Both the position numbers and the translations under genes were made by a program. Positions 25,374 to 52,666 of a DNA stretch of 64,000 nucleotides are shown piece by piece. The first letter of the stretch is position 1; each line of letters starts with the position of its first letter. The stretch covers positions 2,728,001-2,792,000 of the forward strand of contig NC_003282.8 in assembly GCF_000002985.6 (NCBI RefSeq), given 5' to 3'. Source of the DNA: Caenorhabditis elegans. Taxonomy: Eukaryota; Nematoda; Chromadorea; Rhabditida; Rhabditidae. Under the pieces are notes generated by a model. The model saw only the letters and a list, made by a program, of their open reading frames with translations, was not told the DNA's origin and made no database searches.

Positions 25374-26289
25374 TTATCGGGTTTTTTTTCGTTCTTGATT
25401 TTTCGCACCTAAAATTAAATTGTTGGTTTTTTGTCCTCGCTAGAAATAAAACAAAAAATCCAAAACACCAATTTACCCGGTTCCAAAGGGAAAATACTAG
25501 TGCAATCTCTAGAGAAAACTGGTATATTTACAGAAAAAATTCAGTTCTTCTTTTTCGTTAGTTTTTGCTCTTAAAATGTAACGGTTTTGTCTAGAAGCTT
25601 TAAAACTTTAATATCTTAAAACCAATAACTTTTGTCAAAATTTGCTAACTATCAAATTAATCTACGCAACATTTCCTATATTTTGTTAGTTGACAACTTT
25701 TTTCTAGCTATTTTCCCGGAGGAGTTACGGGGATTCAACGGTGGCAAGGTAAGAGAGTGTGGGAGAGAGAGAGAGAGAGAGACTCAGACAGCGTGCGCAC
25801 TCTCCCCACCTGCGTCTCTCTCCTCTCGCCGTGATACTTTTAAACGCATATAACTTAGTGTAGGAGAACGCTGCAAAAAAGTTGTCAACTAACTAAAATG
25901 TAGGGAATTTTGCGTACAACAACTTTTTATTCACTATTTGTTGATTCCTTGACTGTAAATTGAAATATGAGAAATTTTCACATGTAGTCCAAAACACCAA
26001 TTTACTCAGTTCCAAAGGGACAAATACTAGTACATACTCTAGAGAAAGCTTGTATGTTTATTTTAATTTATTACGATAGTTAAATATCGTGAGGTAAAAA
26101 AGCATATTCACAGTATATGAAAGTATATACAAAGAGTATAAAGCTGGTATATTCTCTGAAAAACTCCGTTTTCCTTTTTGGTGCTCTTGAAAACTATTTT
26201 TTCTACAAACTTGAATATCTTGAAAATAAACCATTTTATTCAGTTTTGCTAATTGTCAAAACAATCTTCCCAAAATCTTTTGAAGGAAT
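25374..26289. other. Intergenic with one hairpin element
   Basis: Holds palindromic GAGACGCAG element copy 4 at about 25625-25925 (with a (GA)n stretch at 25765-25780). Two similar blocks, 'CCAAAACACCAATTTACCCGG' at 25460 and its near repeat at 25990, flank that element. No gene is seen. Confidence 0.55.
25625..25925. mobile_element. Palindromic GAGACGCAG hairpin element, copy 4
   Basis: Arms ATTTTGTTAGTTGACAACTT and AAGTTGTCAACTAACTAAAA flank GAGACTCAGACAGCGTGCGC / CACCTGCGTCTCTCTCC. Confidence 0.8.
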
Positions 26290-26760
26290 ATTAGTTTGAG
26301 GTTAGTAGTGGGATATGGTCGGGACTGTAGTAATACTGTAGAGGTACTGTAGGAGTACTGTAGGATTACTGTAGTTTGGGAAAAATTGACTTTTTGTCTT
26401 ATGAAGGAATATTGGTTTGAGGTTAGTGGAGGGATATGGTCGGGGTACTGTAGAGATACTGTAGGAGTACTGTAGGATTACTGTAGGATTACTGTAGTTT
26501 GGAAAAAATTGACGTTTCGTCTTTTGAAGGAATATTGGTTTGAGATTAGTGATGGGATATGGACGGGTACTGTAGTAGTACTGTAGAGGTACTGTAGGAG
26601 TACTGTAGGATTACTGTAGTTTGGGAAAAATTGACTTTTCATCTTTTGAAGGAATATTAGTTTGGGGTTAGTGGAGGGATATGGTCGGGGTACTGTAGTA
26701 GTACAATAGAGATACTGTAGGAGTACTGTAGGATTAATTTAGGAAAAATTGGTTTTTCGT
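26290..26760. repeat. TACTGTAG array in about 120-bp units
   Basis: Four imperfect units run from a 'GAAGGAATATTGGTTTGAGG' lead through a string of 10-11-bp words (GTACTGTAGG, AGTACTGTAG, GATTACTGTA) to 'GGGAAAAATTGAC'. Each unit carries three to five TACTGTAG words. The array abuts the heat-shock-element satellite, and the lead 'GAAGGAATATTGG' runs directly into it. Confidence 0.9.
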
Positions 26761-28600
26761 ATTTGGTAGGAATATTGGAAACTTCGGGAAAATTCAGAAA
26801 TGTTCCAGAACCTTCTGAAAATTTCTGGAAAATTCTGGAATGTTCTAGAACGTTCTGGAAAATTCGAGAAAAATCTGGCATATTCCAGAACCTTCTGGAA
26901 AATTCGAAAACGTTCTGGAATTTTCTAGAAATTTCTGGAAAATTCGAAACAATTCTGGAATGTTCTAGAACCTTCTGGAAAATTCGAGAAAATTCTGAAA
27001 TGTTCTAGAACTTTCTGGAAAGTTCGAAAAAATTCTGGAATGTTCTAGAACCTTCTGGAAAATTCGAAAACGTTCTGGAATTTTCTAGAAATTTCTGGAA
27101 AATTCGAAACAATTCTGGAATGTTCTAGAACCTTCTGGAAAATTCGAGAAAATTCTGAAATGTTCTAGAACTTTCTGGAAAGTTCGAAAAAATACTGGAA
27201 TGTTCCAGAACCTTCTGGAAAATTCGAGAAAACTCTGGAATGTTCTAGAACTTTCTGGAAAATTCGAAAAAATTCTGGAATGTTCTAGAACCTTCTGGAA
27301 AATTCGAAAACGTTCTGGAATTTTCTAGAAATTTCTGGAAAATTCGAAACAATTCTGGAATATTCCAGAACCTTCTGGAAAATTCGAAAACGTTCTGGAA
27401 TTTTCTATAAATTTCTGGAAAATTCGAAACAATTCTGGAATGTTCTAGAACCTTCTGAAAAACTCGGAAAAATACTGGAATGTTCCAGAACCTTCTGGAA
27501 AATTCGAGAAAATTCTGGAATGTTCTAGAACCTTCTGGAAAATTCGAAAACGTTCTGGAATTTTCTAGAAATTTCTGGAAAATTCGAAACAATTCTGGAA
27601 TATTCCAGAACCTTCTGGAAAATTCGAAAACGTTCTGGAATTTTCTAGAAACTTCTGGAAAATTCTAAACAATTCTGGAATGTTCTAGAACCTTCTGGAA
27701 AACTCGGAAAAATACTGGAATGTTCCAGAACTTTCTGGAAAATTCGAGAAAACTCTGGAATGTTCTAGAACTTTCTGGAAAATTCGAAAAAATTCTGGAA
27801 TGTTCTAGAACCTTCTGGAAAATTCGAAAACGTTCTGGAATTTTCTAGAAATTTCTGGAAAATTCGAAACAATTCTGGAATATTCCAGAACCTTCTGGAA
27901 AATTCGAAAACGTTCTGGAATTTTCTAGAAATTTCTGGAAAATTCGAAACAATTCTGGAATGTTCTAGAACTTTCTGGAAAACTCGGAAAAATACTGGAA
28001 TGTTCCAGAACCTTCTGGAAAATTCGAGAAAATTCTGGAATGTTCTAGAACCTTCTGGAAAATTCGAAAACGTTCTGGAATTTTCTAGAAATTTCTGGAA
28101 AATTCGAAACAATTCTGGAATATTCCAGAACCTTCTGGAAAATTCGAAAACGTTCTGGAATTTTCTAGAAATTTCTGGAAAATTCGAAACAATTCTGGAA
28201 TGTTCTAGAACCTTCTGGAAAACTCGGAAAAATACTGGAATGTTCCAGAACCTTCTGGAAAATTCGAGAAAACTCTGGAATGTTCTAGAACTTTCTGGAA
28301 AATTCGAAAAAATTCTGGAATGTTCTAGAACCTTCTGGAAAACTCGGAAAAATACTGGAATGTTCTAGAAACTTCTGGAAAATTTGAGAAAGTTCTGGAA
28401 TATTCTAGAACTTTCTGTAAAATTCGAAAAATTTCTGGAATGTTCTAGAAACTTCTGGAAAATTCGAGAAAATTCTAGAATGTTCCAGAACTTTCTAGAA
28501 AAATCGGGAAAATTCTGGAATTTTTAGAACCTTCTGGAGAATTCGAAAAAAATTCTGGAATGTTTCAGAACCTTCTGGAAAATTCAATAAGAAATCTGGA
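26761..28600. repeat. 1.8-kb satellite of continuous heat-shock-element pentamers
   Basis: The sequence is an unbroken alternation of TTCnn and GAAnn pentamers, for example TTCTGGAATGTTCTAGAACC. This is the consensus architecture of a heat shock element bound by HSF trimers. The 10-bp register is kept from 26761 to about 28520, so every insertion or deletion there was a multiple of 10 bp. Local units of 80 bp are visible. A 520-bp higher-order repeat is clear, since 27241-27760 and 27761-28280 match with few changes. After 28525 the register slips and the array decays. Open frames through the array on both strands (FRIFQKFLENSRTF-like peptides) follow from the repeat and are not genes. Confidence 0.95.
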
Positions 28601-28839
28601 ATGTTCGTGGTGAGACCAATCGTGGTGAGACCCACAAGTTTAGGCGGGAAATTTAAATTTTCCGAAAAAAAACATTTTGACGGGATGTTCAAATTTTCTG
28701 AAAAAAATTTACCGGGAAATTCAAATTCGAAAATTGTGGACCGATCTAGAATCTTCTTGAAAATTCGTTCCATTATGATTTTTCTTTTGAGTACGCCAGT
28801 CGGAGCACGCGCTTTAGCGCGTGCGAACGGCAGGTTTAC

Positions 28840-29330
28840 TATATTTTGTCAGTTGACAACTTTTTTCTAGCTATTTTCCACGAGGTTCTGGCCTTCCTCA
28901 GGAATTTTTCGCGCTCCATTGGCAATCGCCTGCCGGACAATGCGTGGAAAAGTGTCGTGTACTCCACACGGACAAATCCATTTAGTTTTACAACTAAAAA
29001 CGAGCCGCGACGCGACACGCAACGCGCCGTAAATCTACACAAAATCTCTCCGATTCAAAATGGCCTAGTTCGGCAAACTCTGCCATTTCGATTTATGAGG
29101 GAAACCAGAATTCCGTGATTTTCCCCGTACAAAGGCTTGAAGGTGACCAGGTGAGAGAGTAAGGGAAGAGCAGACGCAGACAGCGCGCGCACTCTCACCA
29201 CCTGCGTCTCTCTCCTCTCGCACCAATTATTTAAAACGCACATAACTCCGCGTAGGGGGACGCTAGAAAAAAGTTGTCAACTAACAAAATGTAGGGAATT
29301 TTGCGAACAATGTGTTGGTAGTTGACACTT
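28840..29330. repeat. Long dispersed repeat, copy B (inverse of 22045-22470)
   Basis: Flanked by ATTTTGTCAGTTGACAACTT at the left and AAGTTGTCAACTAACAAAAT at the right, so the unit behaves as one palindromic-ended element of about 480 bp. It carries the CG-rich motif (28992), GTGTACTCCACACGGACAAA and the GAGACGCAG hairpin. The perfect outer arms suggest this is the more complete copy. Confidence 0.85.
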
Positions 29331-31462: not shown

Positions 31463-34169
31463 ATGGCATTTTTCAATCTGAAATTTATTTTGGCATTTGG
31501 TTACTGTTCTATTTCATTTGTTATCTATACACTTTTAATTATAATGCTATTGAAAAATTGGAAGGATTTTAAAAGTGCATTCTTCCATATTGTAATTGCT
31601 GATTATTTCTTTGTGAGTTTACTGTTTGAATTTGCAAAATTCGTAAAATTTGTATATTCTGCTACAACTAGGTTTTTTTAATCGAAAAAATCTCAAAAGC
31701 TGACAGAGAAACGGGTAGTTTAAAATTTTCGTTTCGAGCCCTAAAATCTAGATATTTTCTTACAGAAGCTTCGATTTTTTTTGTGAATTCTAATAAACAA
31801 AAATTTGAATTTAGTGAGTTTTCAGATTTTATTTAAGTATGATCATGACCAATTTTGCTCAAACTCTAAAAAAAAGTTGGGTCCCACAGCGAAATCTCTG
31901 GGTTACTGTACTCGGAAATTTTCAGGCTTATATAATAGTAAGAAAATCGCGGATTATTTCTTTTGTGGAAATCTGCAAATACCAAATTATTTAGACAATT
32001 TTCTTTTTAAAATTTCAAAAATTGAAAAAAAAATCTTCTGTTTTCAAAATTTTCGCTTCGAGACCCAAAACTACATATTTACTAATGTTTTGTTAACGGC
32101 TCTATAATACATTTAATTTAAATAGAAACATGACATAGTTAGCTTGAATTTGAAAAACTTTTGGTCTCGCCACGAAATCTCCAGGGTTACTGTAGTTTTC
32201 CCCAAATTTTTCAAAATCATCGGAATCTTGTCATTATTATACTTAATTGAAAGCTCTCGACAAGCTGAATTCAAGTATTTATGTCAAATCTCGAAAAATC
32301 TTCTGAAAAGTTTAGAATATTTTGGGTCTTGAAGAGAAAATCTTAAAGCATCTGTGTGGGGATAGAGCTGAAAATTTTTATAATACTCTAAAAAACAAGC
32401 CAAAAACTGGGAGTATTAATCAAAACTTATTTAAAAAGTTGCAGAACCTACTAACGTGGCTAAATTCCATGATAACCCTGCGACTTCCAAATGGAACTTG
32501 CAAAGATTGTGTACTTTCGAATTTATTTGCTAGTTTGGGAAAAGATAATCAATATACAAGTAGTTTCCTGTTTTTCTGCTATTTTTTACACTTTGGAAAT
32601 GCGTATTTTCAATATTTTATGGTCACTTTGATGGCTGTCAACAGGACAACTTCCATATTTTTCTACTTTGTGAATGAAAAAGTAAGGGTATTGGAAATAT
32701 TGAAATTGGTAGAACTTAATGAGTTGAGTATTTTATTAGTGGAGGACGTTTTGATAGCTGGTACCTCTGTGAAGTTTAGACTGCTAAACACAACCTATTT
32801 AGTATAACTCCGCGGTGAGAGTAGCTATCAAAAATTTGTCAACTAAGAAAATGTAGAGCTTGAAATTTCCTATATTTTGCTAGTTGAAAACTTTCTAATA
32901 TCTCTTTCCACTGCAAAGATACATGCGTTTGAAATTGAAGGAGGAAATAGTGTGAGAAAGGGGGAGACGTAGAAAGCGCGCGCTCGCTGCGTCTCCTCCT
33001 CTCCCATATTCTCTCACCCTATTAACTTCAAGCGCGCTTATCTTGGAGGGGAAAGCAGCTAGGAGAAAAATTCCAACTGACAAAAGCTATGAAATTTTAA
33101 GATCTACAAGTAGAGCTATTTCAGATTTGGTCAATCCTCTTTCCCCTTTCCCTGGGAGCAGTTATCCTTGTGGAGGTGTTTTTCACTCGGACAATTTTGT
33201 CCACTAAACCATATTTTGTGTTTAATGAGGCTTTAGATATGTACAGTATTAAATCAGACTCGGTAAGACTTTCGGCAACTCGGCATCCTCACGCAATTGT
33301 GCTCTTCAGGACATTCTCTCTGCCTACTCGAATGTGATCATTTTTATGGGATTTTGCGTGATATGTTCTATCGTCTGTAACTTTTTATCGATTATGCAGT
33401 TGAAACTTATGAAAAAAAATTTATCGACAATTGAAAGAAATTTACTATTCTCCACTCTTGCTTCGTCGGTGATTCAGTGTGCTGCCGCAGGAAATACGGT
33501 TTTTTTCTTAAAATTGAACGCAGTTTTGAAAATTATTATTTTCAAAGTTATAGAGCATAAAATTTCCTACATTTTTATAGTTGACAGCTTTTCCATAGCT
33601 CTTCCCTCCGCGGAGATATGAGCGCTGAAAGATTTGCAATGAAAAGACTGTGGGGAGGGGGGAGACGCAGACACGCGCTCTGCGTCTCCCCCCCCCCCCC
33701 CCCCCACACTCTCCCTGCCTAAACTTCAACCGCTTGTATCTCCGTGGGGATGATAGCTATGAAAAAATTTTCAACAGCAAACTTGTAAAAAATTTCGCGT
33801 AGTATTCAAAAATATTTTTTAAAAATTTCAGTTCCTTCTCCAATTCGACCGCAACGCCATCTACGGACAAATTGGACAGCTTTTGCTCCCGTTTTTCAGC
33901 GATTTTCTCACCATAAGTCAGCCATATATTCTGATTTTGATGAGCTCAAAGGTACGAATACAAAAAAACGAACCTGTTCATAAATTTTTTTAATAGGTCC
34001 GCAATGGTATGCTGAAAAATTTCTTCGGGAAAGAATCGAAGGCTAGCAGTTTGTTCGTGAAAACTCAGGGTAACTTCCGATAAGTTGGAAAATTTCGAAA
34101 ATCGATGATTTTTCAGGCCCTCAAACCGGATCCAGAACTTCTCAGGTTCTTCAGTCTAGGAATATTTAA
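31463..34169 (+). CDS. 7TM chemoreceptor (Srg-superfamily-like), 7 exons, 319 aa
   Basis: Exons 31463-31612, 32445-32681, 33125-33262, 33310-33498, 33832-33951, 33997-34069 and 34117-34169 join in phase. Seven hydrophobic segments are visible: FILAFGYCSISFVIYTLLII, the HIVIADYFF region, FLFFCYFLHFGNAYFQYFMV, ILFPLSLGAVILVEVFF, VIIFMGFCVICSIVCNFLSI, the LLFSTLASSVIQCAAAGNT region and LLLPFFSDFLTISQPYILIL. The TM7 signature SDFLTISQPYILxxxSSKVR resembles nematode Srg-superfamily receptors (srg/srv/srx group, from family knowledge); class V is my best guess. The expected role is a plasma-membrane GPCR in sensory cilia; ligand unknown. A tandem paralogue follows at 34680-37612, with all intron positions conserved. 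Introns 2 and 4 carry GAGACGCAG hairpins. AATAAA at 34274. Confidence 0.85.
32810..33110. mobile_element. Palindromic GAGACGCAG hairpin element, copy 5 (chemoreceptor 1, intron 2)
   Basis: CTATATTTTGCTAGTTGAAA / GGAGAAAAATTCCAACTGAC arms with the GGGGAGACGTAGAAAGCGCG / CTGCGTCTCCTCC centre. An equivalent copy sits at the same place in the paralogue's intron 2. Confidence 0.75.
33530..33790. mobile_element. Palindromic GAGACGCAG hairpin element, copy 6, with an 18-C tract (chemoreceptor 1, intron 4)
   Basis: The arm CATTTTTATAGTTGACAGCT faces CTATGAAAAAATTTTCAACA. The central hairpin contains an uninterrupted run of 18 C at 33688-33705 opposite only short G runs. Confidence 0.75.
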
Positions 34170-34679: not shown

Positions 34680-37612
34680 ATGGCATTTTTCAATCTGAAA
34701 TTTATTTTGGCATTTGGTTACTGTTCTATTTCATTTGTTATCTATACACTTTTAATTATAATGCTATTGAAAAATTGGAAAGATTTTAAAAGTGCATTCT
34801 TTCGTATTGTAATCGCTGACTATTTTTTCGTGAGTTTACTGTTTGAATTTGCAAAATTCGTAAAATTTGTATATTCTGCTACAACTAGGTTTTTTTAATC
34901 GAAAAAATCTCAAAAGCTGACAGAGAAACGGGTAGTTTAAAATGTTCGCGTCGAGACCCTAAATCTAGAATTATTCTTACAGTAGCCTCGATTTTGGTGA
35001 AATCAAGTTTAAAATTTTGAACTCAGCGAGTTGTTAGTTTCAGTTTAAATATAATCATGACCTGGTTCTCTCGAAATCGAAAAAAGTTGGGTCCCACAGC
35101 GAAAACTTTGGGTTACTGTAGTTTTGCCAGACAAATTTAAAACTAAATCGAACCTAGTCATGATTATACTTAAATAGTAGGTCTTGGCAAGCGGAGTTCG
35201 GTTTTTAAAGTAAAAATTCTCTAAATCTCAAAAAAAAAGTGTTTAATGTGCTGAAATTGTGCTGAAATTTTCTGCAATATGCTACAAAATAAAACTGAAA
35301 TTTTAAAATTTCAAAAATAATTACAGAACCTATTAACATGGTTGAATTCAATGATAACCCTCCGGATTCCAAATGGAACTTGCAAAGATTGTGTACTTTC
35401 GAATTTATTTGCTAGTTTGGGAAAAGATAATCAATATACAAGTAGTTTCCTGTTTTTCTGCTATTTTTTACATTTTGGAAATGCGTATTTTCAATATTTT
35501 ATGGTGACTTTGATGTCTCTCAACAGGACAACTTCCATATTTTTCTACTTTGTGAATGAAAAAGTGAGGGTATCGGGCAAACTGAAAGAGATAGAAATAA
35601 ATTTGCAACTATGAAGATGTAGAGCTTGATGATCTGCGTATTTTGTTAGTTGGCAGTTTTTTGATACTTCTTACCTCTGTGGAGTTATAGACCGTTAACC
35701 GAAATGACTCGGCTGAAAAATTAGCTTTCGACAAAATGTCAAATAAGTAATGTAGAGCTTAAAATTTCCTATATTTTGTTAGCTGAAAACTTTTCAATAT
35801 CTCTTCTCACTGCAAAGATACACGCGTTTGAAAATTGAAGTGCGAGGGTGTGTGGAAAAGTGTGGAGGAGGGGGAGACGCAGAAAGCGCGCGCTCTCTGC
35901 GTCTCCCCCTTCTTCACACTTCCTCGCGCTCTCTTGCACCCCAATTTTCAAACGCGCCTATCTCGACGGGAAAAAAAGCTAGAAAAAAGTTTTCAACTAG
36001 CAAAATGTAGCAAATTTTCTGCTTAACATTTTCTTAGTTAACAATTTTCCCCTACTGTTCTCATTTTCCAAGTTACAGCCCACCTTTTCAGATCTGGAAA
36101 TTCTTGTTCCCCTTTTCCATCGTCCTCATCATTGGAATAACTACTTTCTGTGCCCGAACAATTCTTGCCACGTCACCATATTATTTGTACAACGAGGTGT
36201 TGGATATGTATTATATTAAGTCGGACTCGGTAAGCACAGCAGTTTTGATAATTTTCTGAAAGCCCTCAACATTTCCTACATTTCTTCTGTTGAAAAATGT
36301 TTTCTATCACCTTTCTCCGCAGAGTTATACTCGTTCAAACATTTACAATGAGAGAGTGTGGTGGGAGGGGAGACGCAGAAAGCACGCGCACACTGCGTCT
36401 CCCACTTCCCCTCACTATTTTGCCTGGAAATATTTGAACGCTTGTATCTCGACGGAGAGAACAGCTAGAAAAATGTTTTCAACACACGAAATGTAGGAAA
36501 TTTTGCGTAGAAAATTTTACCAAACGACAATTTTCAAAATCTCTGCAAGATTTTAAGATTTTCCTCTTTTTTCTAGAACATCCTCCCGGCCTACTACAAT
36601 ATCCTGTATTTTATGGCATTTTCAGTTGCATCATCCATTTTTCTGAATGTTATAGCTGTAATTCGTCTTAAAATGATACAAAACCAAATATCCTCAGTTG
36701 AGCGAAATTTGCTTTTGGTAACCATTTTTTCGTCGATTATTCAGTGTTTTGCAGCAGCGAATACGGTGGGTGAAGTTTTTCCGATTTTTTTGCAAAGTTT
36801 GAATTTGACAAGCTGAGAGCTTCATGTATACTTAGTTTGCTCGAATTTGACTTTAAAAAAACATTTGGGTGGTTAATGTAGATTTCGCGGTGGGCCCAAA
36901 ATTTTCGAACTCAATTCTCAAATTCCAGTTTATCCTCCAAATTGATGTCCAGCGAGCCACAATTTTGGGTCAGGCGGCTCAGATTATGCTACCATTTGCA
37001 AGTGACTTCTTAACCATTTCACAACCCTACATTCTACTATTTGTGAGCTCTAAGGTAAGAAAAAATTTAAGATTTTTAGGTTTTTTTAATTGACAGAGGG
37101 TAGAGCTCAAAATGTCCTACACTCTGTTAGTTGAAAACATTTTTCTAGCTTTTTTTCCCGCCGAGATACACGTGTTTGAAAATTGAAGTGCGAGAGGGCG
37201 CGAGGAAGTGTGGAGGAGAGGGAGACGCAGACAGCGCGCGCTCTCTTCGTCTCCCCCTCCTCCACGCTCTCTCACCCTGCAAACTTAAAGTCTCTCTATC
37301 TCGGCGGGGAGAAGAGCTATAAAAAAGTTTTCAACTGACAAAATGTAGCAAATTTAGAGCTCTACAATTTGCTGGTAGCCAATTTTTTAAAATATTAAAT
37401 GACTTTCGAGATATCAATAATTATTGATTTTTAAAGGTTCGAACTGGATTTTTTGGGATGTATCTCAAGAAATATGAGAAAAGCATTAATTCATGGGGAT
37501 TTTCAAAAACCGGAGGTAATTACTGATTCGTTGTCTAAAGAATTTCGATTTTTTTCCAGGGTTTCAATCGGGGCCAGCTTCGAGATCAACTTCAAAAGTC
37601 ACGAGATTTTAA
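34680..37612 (+). CDS. 7TM chemoreceptor paralogue, 7 exons, 323 aa
   Basis: Exons 34680-34829, 35327-35563, 36092-36229, 36577-36765, 36929-37054, 37437-37515 and 37560-37612 are all in phase. Membrane segments match the upstream paralogue; TM7 reads LPFASDFLTISQPYILLFVS followed by SSK-VR. Exon 1 differs from the paralogue by one residue in 50 (H to R in FF(H/R)IVIADYFF) and exon 2 by three in 79. Exon 3 matches at only 26 of 46 positions and later exons are similarly diverged. The C-terminal tail (KKYEKSINSWGF) is different. Introns 2, 3 and 5 carry GAGACGCAG hairpins. Function is inferred as for the neighbour. No frameshift or premature stop is seen, so it appears intact. Confidence 0.85.
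35610..36030. mobile_element. Palindromic GAGACGCAG hairpin elements, copy 7 (chemoreceptor 2, intron 2)
   Basis: CCTATATTTTGTTAGCTGAA / AAAAGTTTTCAACTAGCAAA arms and GGGGAGACGCAGAAAGCGCG / CTCTGCGTCTCCCC centre. The 5' flank also has a second short hairpin (35610-35700). Confidence 0.8.
36250..36510. mobile_element. Palindromic GAGACGCAG hairpin element, copy 8 (chemoreceptor 2, intron 3)
   Basis: Centre GGGGAGACGCAGAAAGCACG / CACTGCGTCTCCC with flanking ACATTTCTTCTGTTGAAAAA and AACACACGAAATGTAGGAAA. The upstream paralogue's intron 3 (33263-33309) has no such insertion. Confidence 0.8.
37090..37345. mobile_element. Palindromic GAGACGCAG hairpin element, copy 9 (chemoreceptor 2, intron 5)
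   Basis: CTACACTCTGTTAGTTGAAA / AAAGTTTTCAACTGACAAAA arms and GGGAGACGCAGACAGCGCGC / CTTCGTCTCCCCC centre. Confidence 0.8.
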
Positions 37613-37977: not shown

Positions 37978-40900
37978 TTAGGCTCTCGAGCGGAGATGGG
38001 CTCTGTGGAGCCCACGCTTGTGGTGCCAATCGTCGAATTTTGTGCTTGTCGATGGCTTGCGAGTTGGTTTTGGTGACGATGGTTCTGGAAATTTGAAAAA
38101 ATTGAGAATTTGCAAAAGTTTAAAAATTTTCTTATAAATTGGAATTTGGCTCACCGAGAGCTTCAATTTAAGTACAATCATGACCTACTTTGTTCAAAGT
38201 CGGAAAACTTGGGTCCCGCCGCGAAAATTTCCGGGTTACGGTAGGTTTTCGCGGCAGGACCCAAAATTGGTCATGATTATACTTAAATTGAAGGTACGGA
38301 AGAGGTGAATTCGAATTTTTGACTTGAAAATTGGAGAACAAAAATCGTAAAAAAAATTTTTTTTAATTTTCAAAAAAAAACAAATACTCACGATAACTTT
38401 GCACTTTGCATGGAAGTGGAGTTTTATAGGCAATATGTTTTCTGCGGGGTGTGAACTTGGAGAAGTGACGAGAATCGCATTGATCAGTTGGTTTTGAGAC
38501 GGTTCTCATAGATTGACTGGCTTTCTGAAAAATAATTTCTTGCAAAAATTTATAAATGGGCTTTAAAGTTAAGTTTTCATGCGAATTGCAAAAAAAATTT
38601 TAAAAATTGACCTAAATTTGATAATTTTGAGATTTTCGCGGCGAGACCCAAAATTTTCTTAGAGTATCGTTTTTGAATTAGTATTTAACTCATCAAGAGC
38701 TGAGCTTCAATTTGGGTATAATCATGGCTGGATTTGGATAATTTTTAAAAAAAGTGGGGTCTCGCCACGAAAATTGAGCAAAGTAGGTCATGATTATACT
38801 TAAATTGAAGCACTCAGTGAGCTGAATTTAAATATTCAACTGAAATTATGGAGAAATTCAGAATAAAGTCTTGAAAAATTTTTTAAATTTTGTAAATCTA
38901 AAAATAAAATTTGAAATTCCTTCTAAAATTTTAGACAAAAATTATATTTTTTCAGTTTTACTTATTGAATTTGATTATAACTTACCGAGAGCTTCAATTT
39001 AAGTATTGTCATGACTAGGTTTGGTTAATTTTGAAAAAAATCGGGTCTCGCCACGAGGTTACTGTAGGTACCCTAAATGTTCAATCTCAAGCAAAGTGGG
39101 TCATGATTGTACTTAAATCAAAGCTCTCAGTAAGCTAAATTCAAATATTAAATTAAAATCATGAAGAAATTCAAAATAAACTCTTAAAAAATTTTTAAAA
39201 AAATTTGAAAATCTAAAAATAAAATTTGAAATTCCTTCTAAAATTTTAGACAAAAATCTTTTTTTTCAGTTTTACTTATTGAATGTGACTATAATTTACC
39301 GTTAGCTTCAATTTAAGTATAATCATGGCTAGGTTTGGTTAATTTTGAAAAAAAATCGGGTCTCGCCACGAGGTTACTGTAGGTACCCTAAATTTTCAAA
39401 CTTGAGCAAAGTGGGTCATGATTGTACTTAAATTGAAGCTCTCAGTGAGCTAAATTTAAATCTTCAACTGAAATTATGGAGAAATTCAGAATAAAGTCTT
39501 GAAAGATTAAAAAAAATTTTGAAAATCTAAAAATAAAATTTGAAATTCCTTCTAAAATTTTAGACAAAAATCTTTTTTTTCAGTTTTACTTATTGAATGT
39601 GACTATAATTTACCGTTAGCTTCAATTTAAGTATAATCATGGCTAGGTTTGGTTAATTTTGAAAAAAAATCGGGTCTCGCCACGAGGTTACTGTAGGTAC
39701 CCTAAATTTTCAAACTTGAGCAAAGTGGGTCATGATTGTACTTAAATTGAAGCTCTCAGTGAGCTAAATTTAAATCTTCAACTGAAATTATGGAGAAATT
39801 CAGAATAAAGTCTTGAAAGATTAAAAAAAATTTTGAAAATCTAAAAATAAAATTTGAAATTCCTTCTAAAATTTTAGACAAAAATCTTTTTTTTCAGTTT
39901 TACTTATTGAATGTGACTATAATTTACCGTTAGCTTCAATTTAAGTATAATCATTGCTAGGTTTGGTTAATTTTGAAAAAAAAATCGGGTCTCGCCACGA
40001 GGTTACTGTAGGTACCCTAAATTTTCAAACTTGAGCAAAGTAGGTCATGATTGTACTTAAATCAAAGCTTCCAACTGGTTGAATTCGAATTTTCTAATTA
40101 AACTTTGAAAAATTTAAAACAATTTTAATTTTTGTCGAATTTTGGGGGGTTTTCCCCGACATACCTTTCCACAAATTTGTGCTCTTTGTGGTTTTCTATA
40201 GGACACCAGTGTTGGCTTGTAAATAACCGCTGGCAGGTTCTTCTGACAAGTCCACTTGGACTCGTTGACGTGTACAAGGCATGGCTGATGACGTGGCACG
40301 TGACGTTGCAGACGTCTGCGTGGCGAGAATGGAGCCGGTGGGATTGGAGCCAGAGCTCTACACTTTGGCTCATTATCGATTGGGAAAAATGCAGGTAAAA
40401 TTGTGGTTTCGTTATCCCAATTGAGCACTAGATCTACGCTTTTTTCAGAAAATTTCAAAATTTTTGGCGTCTGGATTTGGACTTCCACTTCGGATTGCAT
40501 TTTCCAAGTGTGAGTGTTGTTGGTAAAGATATCAAGAATTTCAAAGGATCTTATCGGTTTAGAGGCCTTTGGGCGGCGTAAAATATCCCGCAGCATGTGC
40601 AAATGCTTCTTCTTGTCGGACAACGGGGCCTGAAACAAAATTTTAAAATTTTCAGTTAAGAAATTTGAATTCCTTATGCCAAGAGCTTCAATTTAAGTAT
40701 AATCACGACTAGGTTATGTCCAATTTGAGTTTTCCTGTTGAAACTACAGAAACCCGGGAGATTTCGTGGCGGGACCCAACTTTATTTTTCTCCCAACATT
40801 ATGAACTCAAAGTAAGTCAATCATATACGTAAATTGAAGCACTCGGTTCATATAGAAAACTTTCAAAAATGGAAATTTCTAAAAAAAAATTTGGGTCTCA

Positions 40901-50776: not shown

Positions 50777-52666
50777 ATGTCTAGCGAACCGAAATATGCA
50801 AAAATCCGTGTAGATGGGAAACCACATGTTATCGAAAGAGCTCTTCTGTCGTCTCCCCAAAAACGTACGTTTGCAAAAAAGATTTATTAAAACCATAAAA
50901 TACAGAAGAGCTTGATGATTGCTTCGAAGGATTCATCAATTTACCAGGCATTCCAACATCTCCAAGTGAAAAATTCTTCAAGGATGCCTGTGTGGGGACA
51001 TCTTTCATCGGGAAAAATCAGTCGACTCTTGTGAAACCTGAAAGTTTAGAGGTACATAGGCGTGAAACAATAATATAATTTTTTCTTGAAATTAGAATAT
51101 CTATGACAAGATGGCTCGAGAACAAGATGAAAGAGATCTGAATCTAGGGCGGGCAATCAGAACCTTGGAGCTGCTGACAAGGGATCAATGTGATGTTAAA
51201 GGAAAATATTCAAAGGATGATTTAGACGTTTCCATGGTTAATTATCTTTATGATCAAGTTGTTAATATAAAATCAGTGCTGGGAGAGCTTGCAAAAGGAA
51301 CTATCTTCGATAACACCAACGATCTCGTAGCGTCGCTATTGGGAATTAGTTCTATAACAGTGTATCGCAAGAGAAAAAGGATTGGAGAAGAGAAACCTGA
51401 AAAAGAAAAGATTTCCAAGAAACAGCGAATTCTGAATATGGTAACAGATGAGCAACGCAAGGAGATTTTTGATCATGTGCAGGAATGCTTCAGAACTGAC
51501 ACAAATTTTACTTTATCAACTCTACTGGTTGATCTGAAGGAGAGGTTCAACTTCCAATATGGACGTTCATCACTCCACGATTTGCTCCGAGCAATGGATC
51601 TAGTTTACAAAGTCAAAACCTACAACCCAATGGTATCAGATAGAGTGGATATTGTAGCTTGGAGAGGACGGTATCTGAGGCAAATTTCAGAATTGAGAGA
51701 AGCTGGTGCCTATATCACGTTCTTTGATGAGACTTGGATTTATCACGGGATGGTCCGCAAGCATGGTTGGGACTTAAAAAACCATACGGCCTATGAACTT
51801 GCTCGTATTGGAAGTATGAGAAATCCGATTCCAGGCTTTGCCGCCGGTAGTGATAAAGGTGTTAGGGCAATTGTCCTAGCGGTTTTGACTCCATCGGGAA
51901 TTCTAGAGGCCTCCATCGACGTGGTAACTTCGAAGCGTCCCGCTTCGGAACAGCTAGTTGATTATCACAAATCGATGGATTCTGAAATGTACTATAAGTA
52001 TATGGAAAAGGTGCTTCCAGAAATTGTTGCAGCAGCTCCTCCAGGTCGGCAACCGGTGATGGTAATCGATAACTGTGCCATTCACAACCAAACGACGCTG
52101 AAGGCAAATAATTTTGAAAAAAAAGAGAAAGGGAGATTTTATTTAGCTCCCCACGAAAAGCTCCAAGAAGGAAGACATCACCAATTTTCTCAAAGATCAG
52201 GGAGTTGCAGTGGATCCTTCTCTTAAAAAAGATGAGCTATGGGATGAGGCCGACAGTTACATGAGAATGCATGGGGGTAGAAAGGCTTTGATGAAATACG
52301 AGGTCGATGAAATGGCTGCAAGGTTGGGAGTGCAAATCGTCAGACTTCCACCGTACCATTGTTGTCTCAATCCCATCGAGCTCATTTGGAACCAGCTGAA
52401 AAGCTTCCTGCGCAAGCATGGAAAATTTGACAGCAAACTGGAAACAGTAAGATCATTTTTACCAAATTGCTTTCAAATTTTCTGATATTAAGGTCCGTAC
52501 TCAAGCGATTCAATTTCTTAAAAGCATCGACGAGGAAGCTGTGGCAAATATAATGGATCACGTTATGGATGCTGAGATTGACCTTAAGACTATTATGGAT
52601 GCCGATTTTGAGCAAAATCTACGCGAGGATGAGATGGATTCGGGGGATGATGACATCAGTTTTTGA
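50777..52666 (+). CDS. DDE transposase, 5 exons, 571 aa, apparently intact
   Basis: Exons 50777-50864, 50906-51051, 51096-52103, 52147-52446 and 52493-52666 join to 571 codons without a frameshift or stop. Intron 3 (52104-52146) uses a GC donor (AAG/GCAAAT) and TTTAG acceptor; without it the frame would break. The N-terminal half includes a helix-turn-helix-like NDLVASLLGISSITVYRKRK and a basic stretch. The catalytic core has D289 (YITFFDETWIYHG), D403 (VMVIDNCAIHN) and E492 (RLPPYHCCLNPIELIWNQLK), the DDE triad of IS630/Tc1/mariner enzymes. The gap between the second D and the E is 88 residues rather than the usual 34 and contains a KKEDITNFLKDQGV segment, as in long-spacer subfamilies. It should cut and paste the surrounding element at TA sites. 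The acidic C-terminus (REDEMDSGDDDISF) is unusual. Confidence 0.9.

Follow-up and report, generated by a model that had tools for sequence, protein, structure and literature searches.

Human satellite III is a satellite of HSF1-binding repeats that is pericentromeric and far longer than 1.8 kb. The heat-shock-element (HSE) array described here is likewise a satellite of such repeats, but it is a 1.8 kb tract within a transposon. A C. elegans repeat named RcS5, holding heat-shock consensus sites, was reportedly described in a 1988 paper; a literature search by author and title words gave no such paper among the matches listed, and RcS5 was not met with as a C. elegans repeat in the literature covered. 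Human satellite III is cited in both PMC6765114 and PMC9261439, and the former reports that Helitron1_CE RNA is up on heat shock, an increase that is sensitive to HSF-1 levels.

The closest described family is Cele_Fam_7_40 (Subirana et al. 2015; PMC4595182), whose repeats are multiples of the decamer AGAANNTTCT and Helitron-related; its Helitrons also hold 11-, 15- and 34/35-bp satellites. The same paper lists a satellite at V:7916946 (8,052 bp; 40-bp × 201), which is the chromosome V HSE array found here at G000:C5:7916856-7925030, and its HelitronY4_CE at I:7868158 coincides with an HSE array accompanied by 15-, 35- and 11-bp companions. The array under study resembles these (40-bp multiples of AGAANNTTCT within Helitrons of the same genome) and has the defining features of Cele_Fam_7_40, namely a Helitron-linked 40-bp repeat of AGAANNTTCT decamers. 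It differs in that this copy is unnamed in the available text of PMC4595182, where neither 'heat shock' nor 'HSF' occurs in the main text.

According to class-level ChIP, HSF-1 occupies five Helitron classes, with stronger binding on heat shock (Garrigues et al. 2019; PMC6927752). Helitrons hold 11,527 of 18,766 HSEs (61.4%), with more than 100 in each of eight HelitronY4_CE copies, and Helitron HSEs can make nearby genes heat-inducible, with GPCR genes enriched among those (PMC6927752). These Hac-HSEs, which are bound by HSF-1, are like the present array in being dense HSE clusters confined to Helitrons, with more than 100 HSEs in some copies; unlike the present analysis, the available text discusses neither register, indels nor array growth, and does not name this copy. 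Both the satellite family and its connection with Helitrons have already been published (PMC4595182, PMC6927752), and since this kind of element is known the locus by itself adds little.

The HSE satellite and its host transposon

The window, the whole 64,000-nucleotide stretch analysed (C4:2728001-2792000), contains an HSE satellite whose TRF edges correspond to chrIV:2,754,776-2,756,606 (+ strand; Table 1). Between 26700 and 28600, 160 of 164 TTC trinucleotides lie on one phase modulo 10 and 139 of 181 GAA on the partner phase; across the remaining window the phases of both are even. The pentamer slots up to 28520 number 348, with 292 exact, 46 carrying one mismatch and 10 carrying two. The longest exact pentamer runs contain 14 pentamers, compared with 3 in the remaining window and 2–4 in first-order Markov copies (n=200), and on these run lengths a chance origin is rejected. 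In 44 places the array has at least three exact pentamers in succession, each such run a predicted HSF-1 site by the sequence definition (at least three inverted nGAAn pentamers at 5-bp spacing), and the array alone has 86 HSE trimers in phase. Neither a tRNA (ARAGORN) nor an Rfam feature at gathering score was found.

Table 1. Features of the HSE satellite, its host element and the Srg-like ORFs to its right (window coordinates).
Feature	Position	Strand	Description
Predicted whole non-autonomous Helitron, 2,559 bp	26276..28834	+	Junctions ...CCCAAAA/TCTTTTG and ...CGGCAGG/TTTAC; insertion between A and T
Helitron 5′ end	26276..26776	+	123-bp unit with ACTGTAGGAGT 11-mers, repeated about four times; TRF period 123, 4.1 copies
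HSE satellite	26776..28606	+	TTCnnGAAnn decamers, 40-bp period × 45.8 (TRF, phase counts, slot counts)
1,560 bp absent from sister copy	27013..28572	+	One of 108 equal alignments
Out-of-register block	28521..28550	+	1-bp deletion, then 1-bp insertion; direct reading, gaps also by consensus alignment
15-bp CGTGGTGAGACC(C)A satellite, two relic copies	28606..28636	+	Sequence; satellite also in other Helitrons of this kind
3′ hairpin	28805..28824	+	GCACGCGC-TTTA-GCGCGTGC; 8-bp perfect stem
3′ terminus	28831..28834	+	CAGG, then T; direct reading
Srg-match ORF	32316-32807		Pfam E 5.5e-5
Srg-match ORF	33253-33621		Pfam E 1.3e-3, below curated cut-off
Srg-match ORF	35321-35614		Pfam E 6.1e-5

The sequence-only reading had described an unbroken array of about 350 pentamers at 26761..28530, in strict 10-bp register for about 1,760 bp and with 80- and 520-bp units. 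The array is real and is composed of inverted nGAAn pentamers, and the slot count agrees, although only the 292 are exact. Both units are genuine, as the top self-similarity lags are 520, 240, 760 and 80 bp, and a Fourier scan, which that reading had proposed, has its peak at 10.01 bp. The edges lie elsewhere, however, and direct reading finds a stretch of ~20 bp out of register near the right end. Here the 9-base decamer at 28521-28529 (TTTTTAGAA) represents a 1-bp deletion and the 11-base decamer at 28540-28550 a 1-bp insertion inside an A run, the two compensating each other; 'strict' register is therefore valid only up to ~28520. Alignment to the repeat consensus gives three 1-bp gaps (-1, +1, +1) in the array. 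Its mismatch to the unit is 10.0%, much of which reflects variants common to several units, and only 8 private substitutions are recognised within it.

The array makes up ~72% of what is predicted to be a non-autonomous HelitronY-type transposon. A left-flank search of the genome (best 40 of 879 candidates) finds the flank repeated at many loci from 26276 on, which is also the repeat boundary in the best copies, and several of these 5′-part matches directly adjoin other HSE arrays. The right boundary, at ~28835, was set from a sister copy and the termini by direct reading. The Helitron features present are a 5′ TC with insertion between A and T (A/TCTTTTG at 26276; T at 28835), a 3′-proximal hairpin ending 6 bases ahead of the terminal four bases, and the same ends in copies elsewhere (the 5′ part at many loci, and the 3′ part, with the right flank to ~28835, at C4:2694686-2694932 with 98% identity). 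The hairpin also occurs in loci L013, L018 and L028, with TTCA loops. Canonical Helitrons end in CTRR followed by T, and the CAGG end of the window copy departs from this. CTGG followed by T closes the sister copy as well as L013, L018 and L028, so CAGG is most simply a one-base change in the window copy, and the element is classed as a Helitron copy on account of these relatives. The sequence-only reading had noted that HSE-bearing Helitrons are reported in Caenorhabditis, and placement of the array within one is upheld by the element ends, the hairpin and the related copies.

The 15-bp satellite that follows the array is also present in L063 and other loci. No Rep-helicase gene was found beside the array by a genome search with the Pfam Helitron family PF14214, whose 13 matches all lie off contig C4. 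The name HelitronY4_CE was considered and rejected; the companion satellites are of the same kinds, yet the 5′ part matches a HelitronY4_CE copy at only 82% over 139 bp, and the label is therefore kept at HelitronY-type. A repeat of ~240 bp with many genome-wide copies lies directly to the right of the Helitron (28875-29120). Further right, positions 38770-40069 hold 4.1 copies of a 314-bp unit (93% matches; TRF), and a 376-aa ORF at 51096-52226 with weak, below-cut-off matches to DDE_3 and HTH_33 is possibly a decayed Tc1/mariner-type transposase.

The sister copy is located 60 kb away at C4:2694687-2695209, measured from the left preface of the array through the 3′ end, with identities of 96.5%, 96.7% and 98.2% to the window copy in three aligned segments. 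The array start, odd variants included, and the 3′ end are common to both copies, and the sister array is exactly 1,560 bp shorter (39 × 40, 3 × 520). Outside the array, an A run differs in length by a single A; left of the array there are gaps of 10 and 5 bp, and the alignment weakens leftward. The 520-bp blocks of the window array are 94.2% (1–2), 90.8% (2–3) and 85.8% (1–3) identical, and with blocks only 85.8–94.2% alike a single 3-copy 520-bp block is only partly supported as the source of the extra 1,560 bp. The exact difference fits homologous unequal copying, which yields whole units for free. Length change by whole units thus does occur.

Register, indels and substitutions across related arrays

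Pattern matching across the genome gave 1,038 forward and 1,000 reverse matches and 0 for the control, with places known among the matches listed. Forty of 401 first-look candidates were scored, and the best matches together with 20 fetched stretches form 40 loci after merging. Register was counted in the 41 arrays of at least 400 bp (the window's included) in 39 of these loci, shorter arrays being left out. The sample favours strict register, because the arrays scored are those most like the window array. Phase segments holding under 3 hits were also ignored in the count, so that the window's two 1-bp indels go unseen and the window array (L001) is scored as strict.

Among these best 40 of 401 candidates, one phase is held by 26 of the 41 arrays and shifted in 15, with 32 shifts in 38.9 kb ranging from -4 to +3 bases. 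Arrays L012, L019 and L024 wander across many phases, and another 12 arrays shift once to three times. The same +1 shift is repeated at intervals in L019, L032 and L048, as if off-register blocks containing the unit with a one-base insertion had themselves been duplicated. At the family rate ~1.5 shifts are expected per 1.8 kb, with a shift-free probability of ~0.2 by our own arithmetic, so a shift-free run of this length is not unusual. Divergence does not always bring loss of register, as L014 has 11.9% mismatch to its unit and zero gaps. The sequence-only reading had named free loss of 10-bp register in related arrays as evidence against its proposal, and such loss is found, strongly in L012, L019 and L024.

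Two other loci have distinctive arrays. In L015 (G000:C6:441643-445390) 37 exact HSE pentamers follow one another without a break, the longest such run among the top 15 of the 40 loci, and its array has two +3 register shifts. The HSE array of the chromosome V locus (L004/L006/L008; G000:C5:7915641-7926358) spans 8.06 kb and shifts by +1 once, with an HSE density of 0.27 of slots; it is the longest of the 41 arrays from the best 40 of 401 candidates and has the third lowest HSE density.

Indels were scored by alignment to cyclic consensus sequences in 44 HSE arrays of at least 250 bp, separated from controls by HSE density and leaving out L001 as a duplicate of the window array, and in 43 control arrays. 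The controls comprise 12 satellites hand-chosen from a 27-row table in PMC4595182, companion satellites from the HSE loci and window tandem repeats, and are a non-random sample. The HSE arrays contain 83 gap events, 79 of which are not multiples of ten. Gap events number 83 per 2,211 mismatches in HSE arrays versus 246 per 2,062 in controls, and distinct gaps number 67 per 827 distinct mismatches versus 120 per 694 (Fisher p 2e-6). For periods of up to 45 the distinct gaps are 43 per 549 versus 45 per 275 (p 0.001), and at mismatch below 6% there are 1.09 gaps per kb in HSE arrays (33 arrays) versus 4.66 in controls (31 arrays; p 0.002). The pooled indel rate of HSE arrays is therefore about half that of the control satellites, in statistics where some control arrays repeat one variant often and events within an array are not independent. 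The remaining comparisons of HSE arrays with controls are not significant: arrays with any gap (24/44 versus 30/43, p 0.19), distinct gaps per kb by array (p 0.06), the per-array test at short periods (p 0.52) and gaps per kb at 6–12% mismatch (5.87 versus 10.46, p 0.97). Equally regular controls exist, among them L059, a 20-bp satellite, and, of the five 15-bp companions, the four that have no gap. The deficit of indels in HSE arrays may be real, but mild and at most twofold.

Family-wide, 73 of 109 private substitutions fall in the six core positions contacted by HSF, where position alone would predict 65 and position adjusted for base 63 (p 0.07, in the direction of an excess). Three other settings give p values of 0.07, 0.64 and 0.02, with depletion in none. 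HSE-destroying and spacer changes are in a ratio of 56:38 among private variants versus 26:23 among amplified ones (p 0.48), and other contexts give p values of 0.57 and 0.41. None of the register, indel, core-base and amplified-variant tests thus points to purifying selection acting on binding sites once they have been amplified.

Probable origin of the register and possible roles in the heat-shock response

The array is very probably the internal HSE satellite of a non-autonomous HelitronY-type transposon, with a register that comes from repeat copying and needs no selection. Element ends, array, sister copy and register statistics are observed directly. The array would have grown from decamers and 40-bp units via homologous unequal exchange or slippage, processes that add or remove whole units; it has accumulated few small indels so far, and several more diverged relatives have drifted off register. 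Published work on the Helitron class suggests that HSF-1 can bind the window array on heat shock, and that such binding drives the transposase in autonomous relatives and can spill onto nearby genes.

The sequence-only reading had offered selection for HSF-1 binding, or copying constrained to whole HSEs, as what preserves the phase. Selection for binding, acting on host or transposon to maintain the phase of 10 bp together with the HSE cores, appears most improbable. Strict phase in 26 of the 41 best-matching arrays and the pooled indel deficit relative to control satellites are what it would predict, but core bases change no less frequently than spacers, amplified variants do not come out cleaner than private ones (p 0.48), and the +1 shifts in L019, L032 and L048 are repeated. 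The longest array, the 8-kb one on chromosome V, likewise speaks against it, with the third lowest HSE density (0.27) and yet a single +1 shift. With 15 of 41 arrays shifting, 79 of 83 indels off multiples of ten and core bases not spared, the proposal that selection for HSF-1 binding keeps the phase is not sustained. Heat-inducible enhancer activity of the array on an adjacent gene, for example one of the Srg-like ORFs to its right, is unlikely. Nearby genes, with GPCR genes enriched, are made heat-inducible by Helitron HSEs elsewhere (PMC6927752), and three ORFs with Srg chemoreceptor Pfam matches are located 3.5–7 kb to the right of the array; this distance, at least 3.5 kb, counts against it.

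Another role, which we consider quite unlikely, would have the window array and the 8-kb chromosome V array act as a sink for HSF-1, seeding nuclear stress bodies or producing heat-induced satellite RNA in the manner of satellite III in human cells. In C. elegans, HSF-1 forms nuclear stress bodies, for which its binding is required (PMC9261439), the HSF-1 DNA-binding domain shows cooperative binding to multimeric HSEs (PMC9148306), and a decoy role of transposon-borne binding sites is already a published speculation (PMC8896005). Ranked by non-overlapping HSE trimers, counted over whole loci with flanks and of unequal lengths, the window locus is second of the 40 loci (best 40 of 401 candidates) with 88, behind chromosome V with 184, and both are thus fair candidates for HSF-1 foci. 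The 40 loci total only 1,609 trimers, however, and PMC6927752 counts 11,527 Helitron HSEs, so the window copy would be a small share of any sink. The available text of PMC9261439 names no worm locus for HSF-1 foci, and PMC9737000, a review, mentions HSF-1, Helitron and stress bodies together. Among the papers listed, none was found by title or abstract start to place stress bodies on Helitron satellites. In PMC9918286, which treats C. elegans satellite transcription, none of heat shock, HSF, 10 bp, 40 bp, TTCTGGAA or 'length of the repeat' occurs. The broader proposal that HSE satellites, led by the chrV:7.92-Mb and chrIV arrays, seed stress bodies and that HSF-1 occupancy or the decamer itself lowers their indel rate about twofold is highly unlikely.

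Repeat copying within a Helitron thus stands as the preferred account of the register. The ranked arrays, with the 8-kb chromosome V array first and the window array second of 40 loci, are candidate sites of C. elegans stress bodies. The negative test of selection is itself useful, as it indicates that a striking ten-base register in an array of factor sites can come from repeat copying alone.
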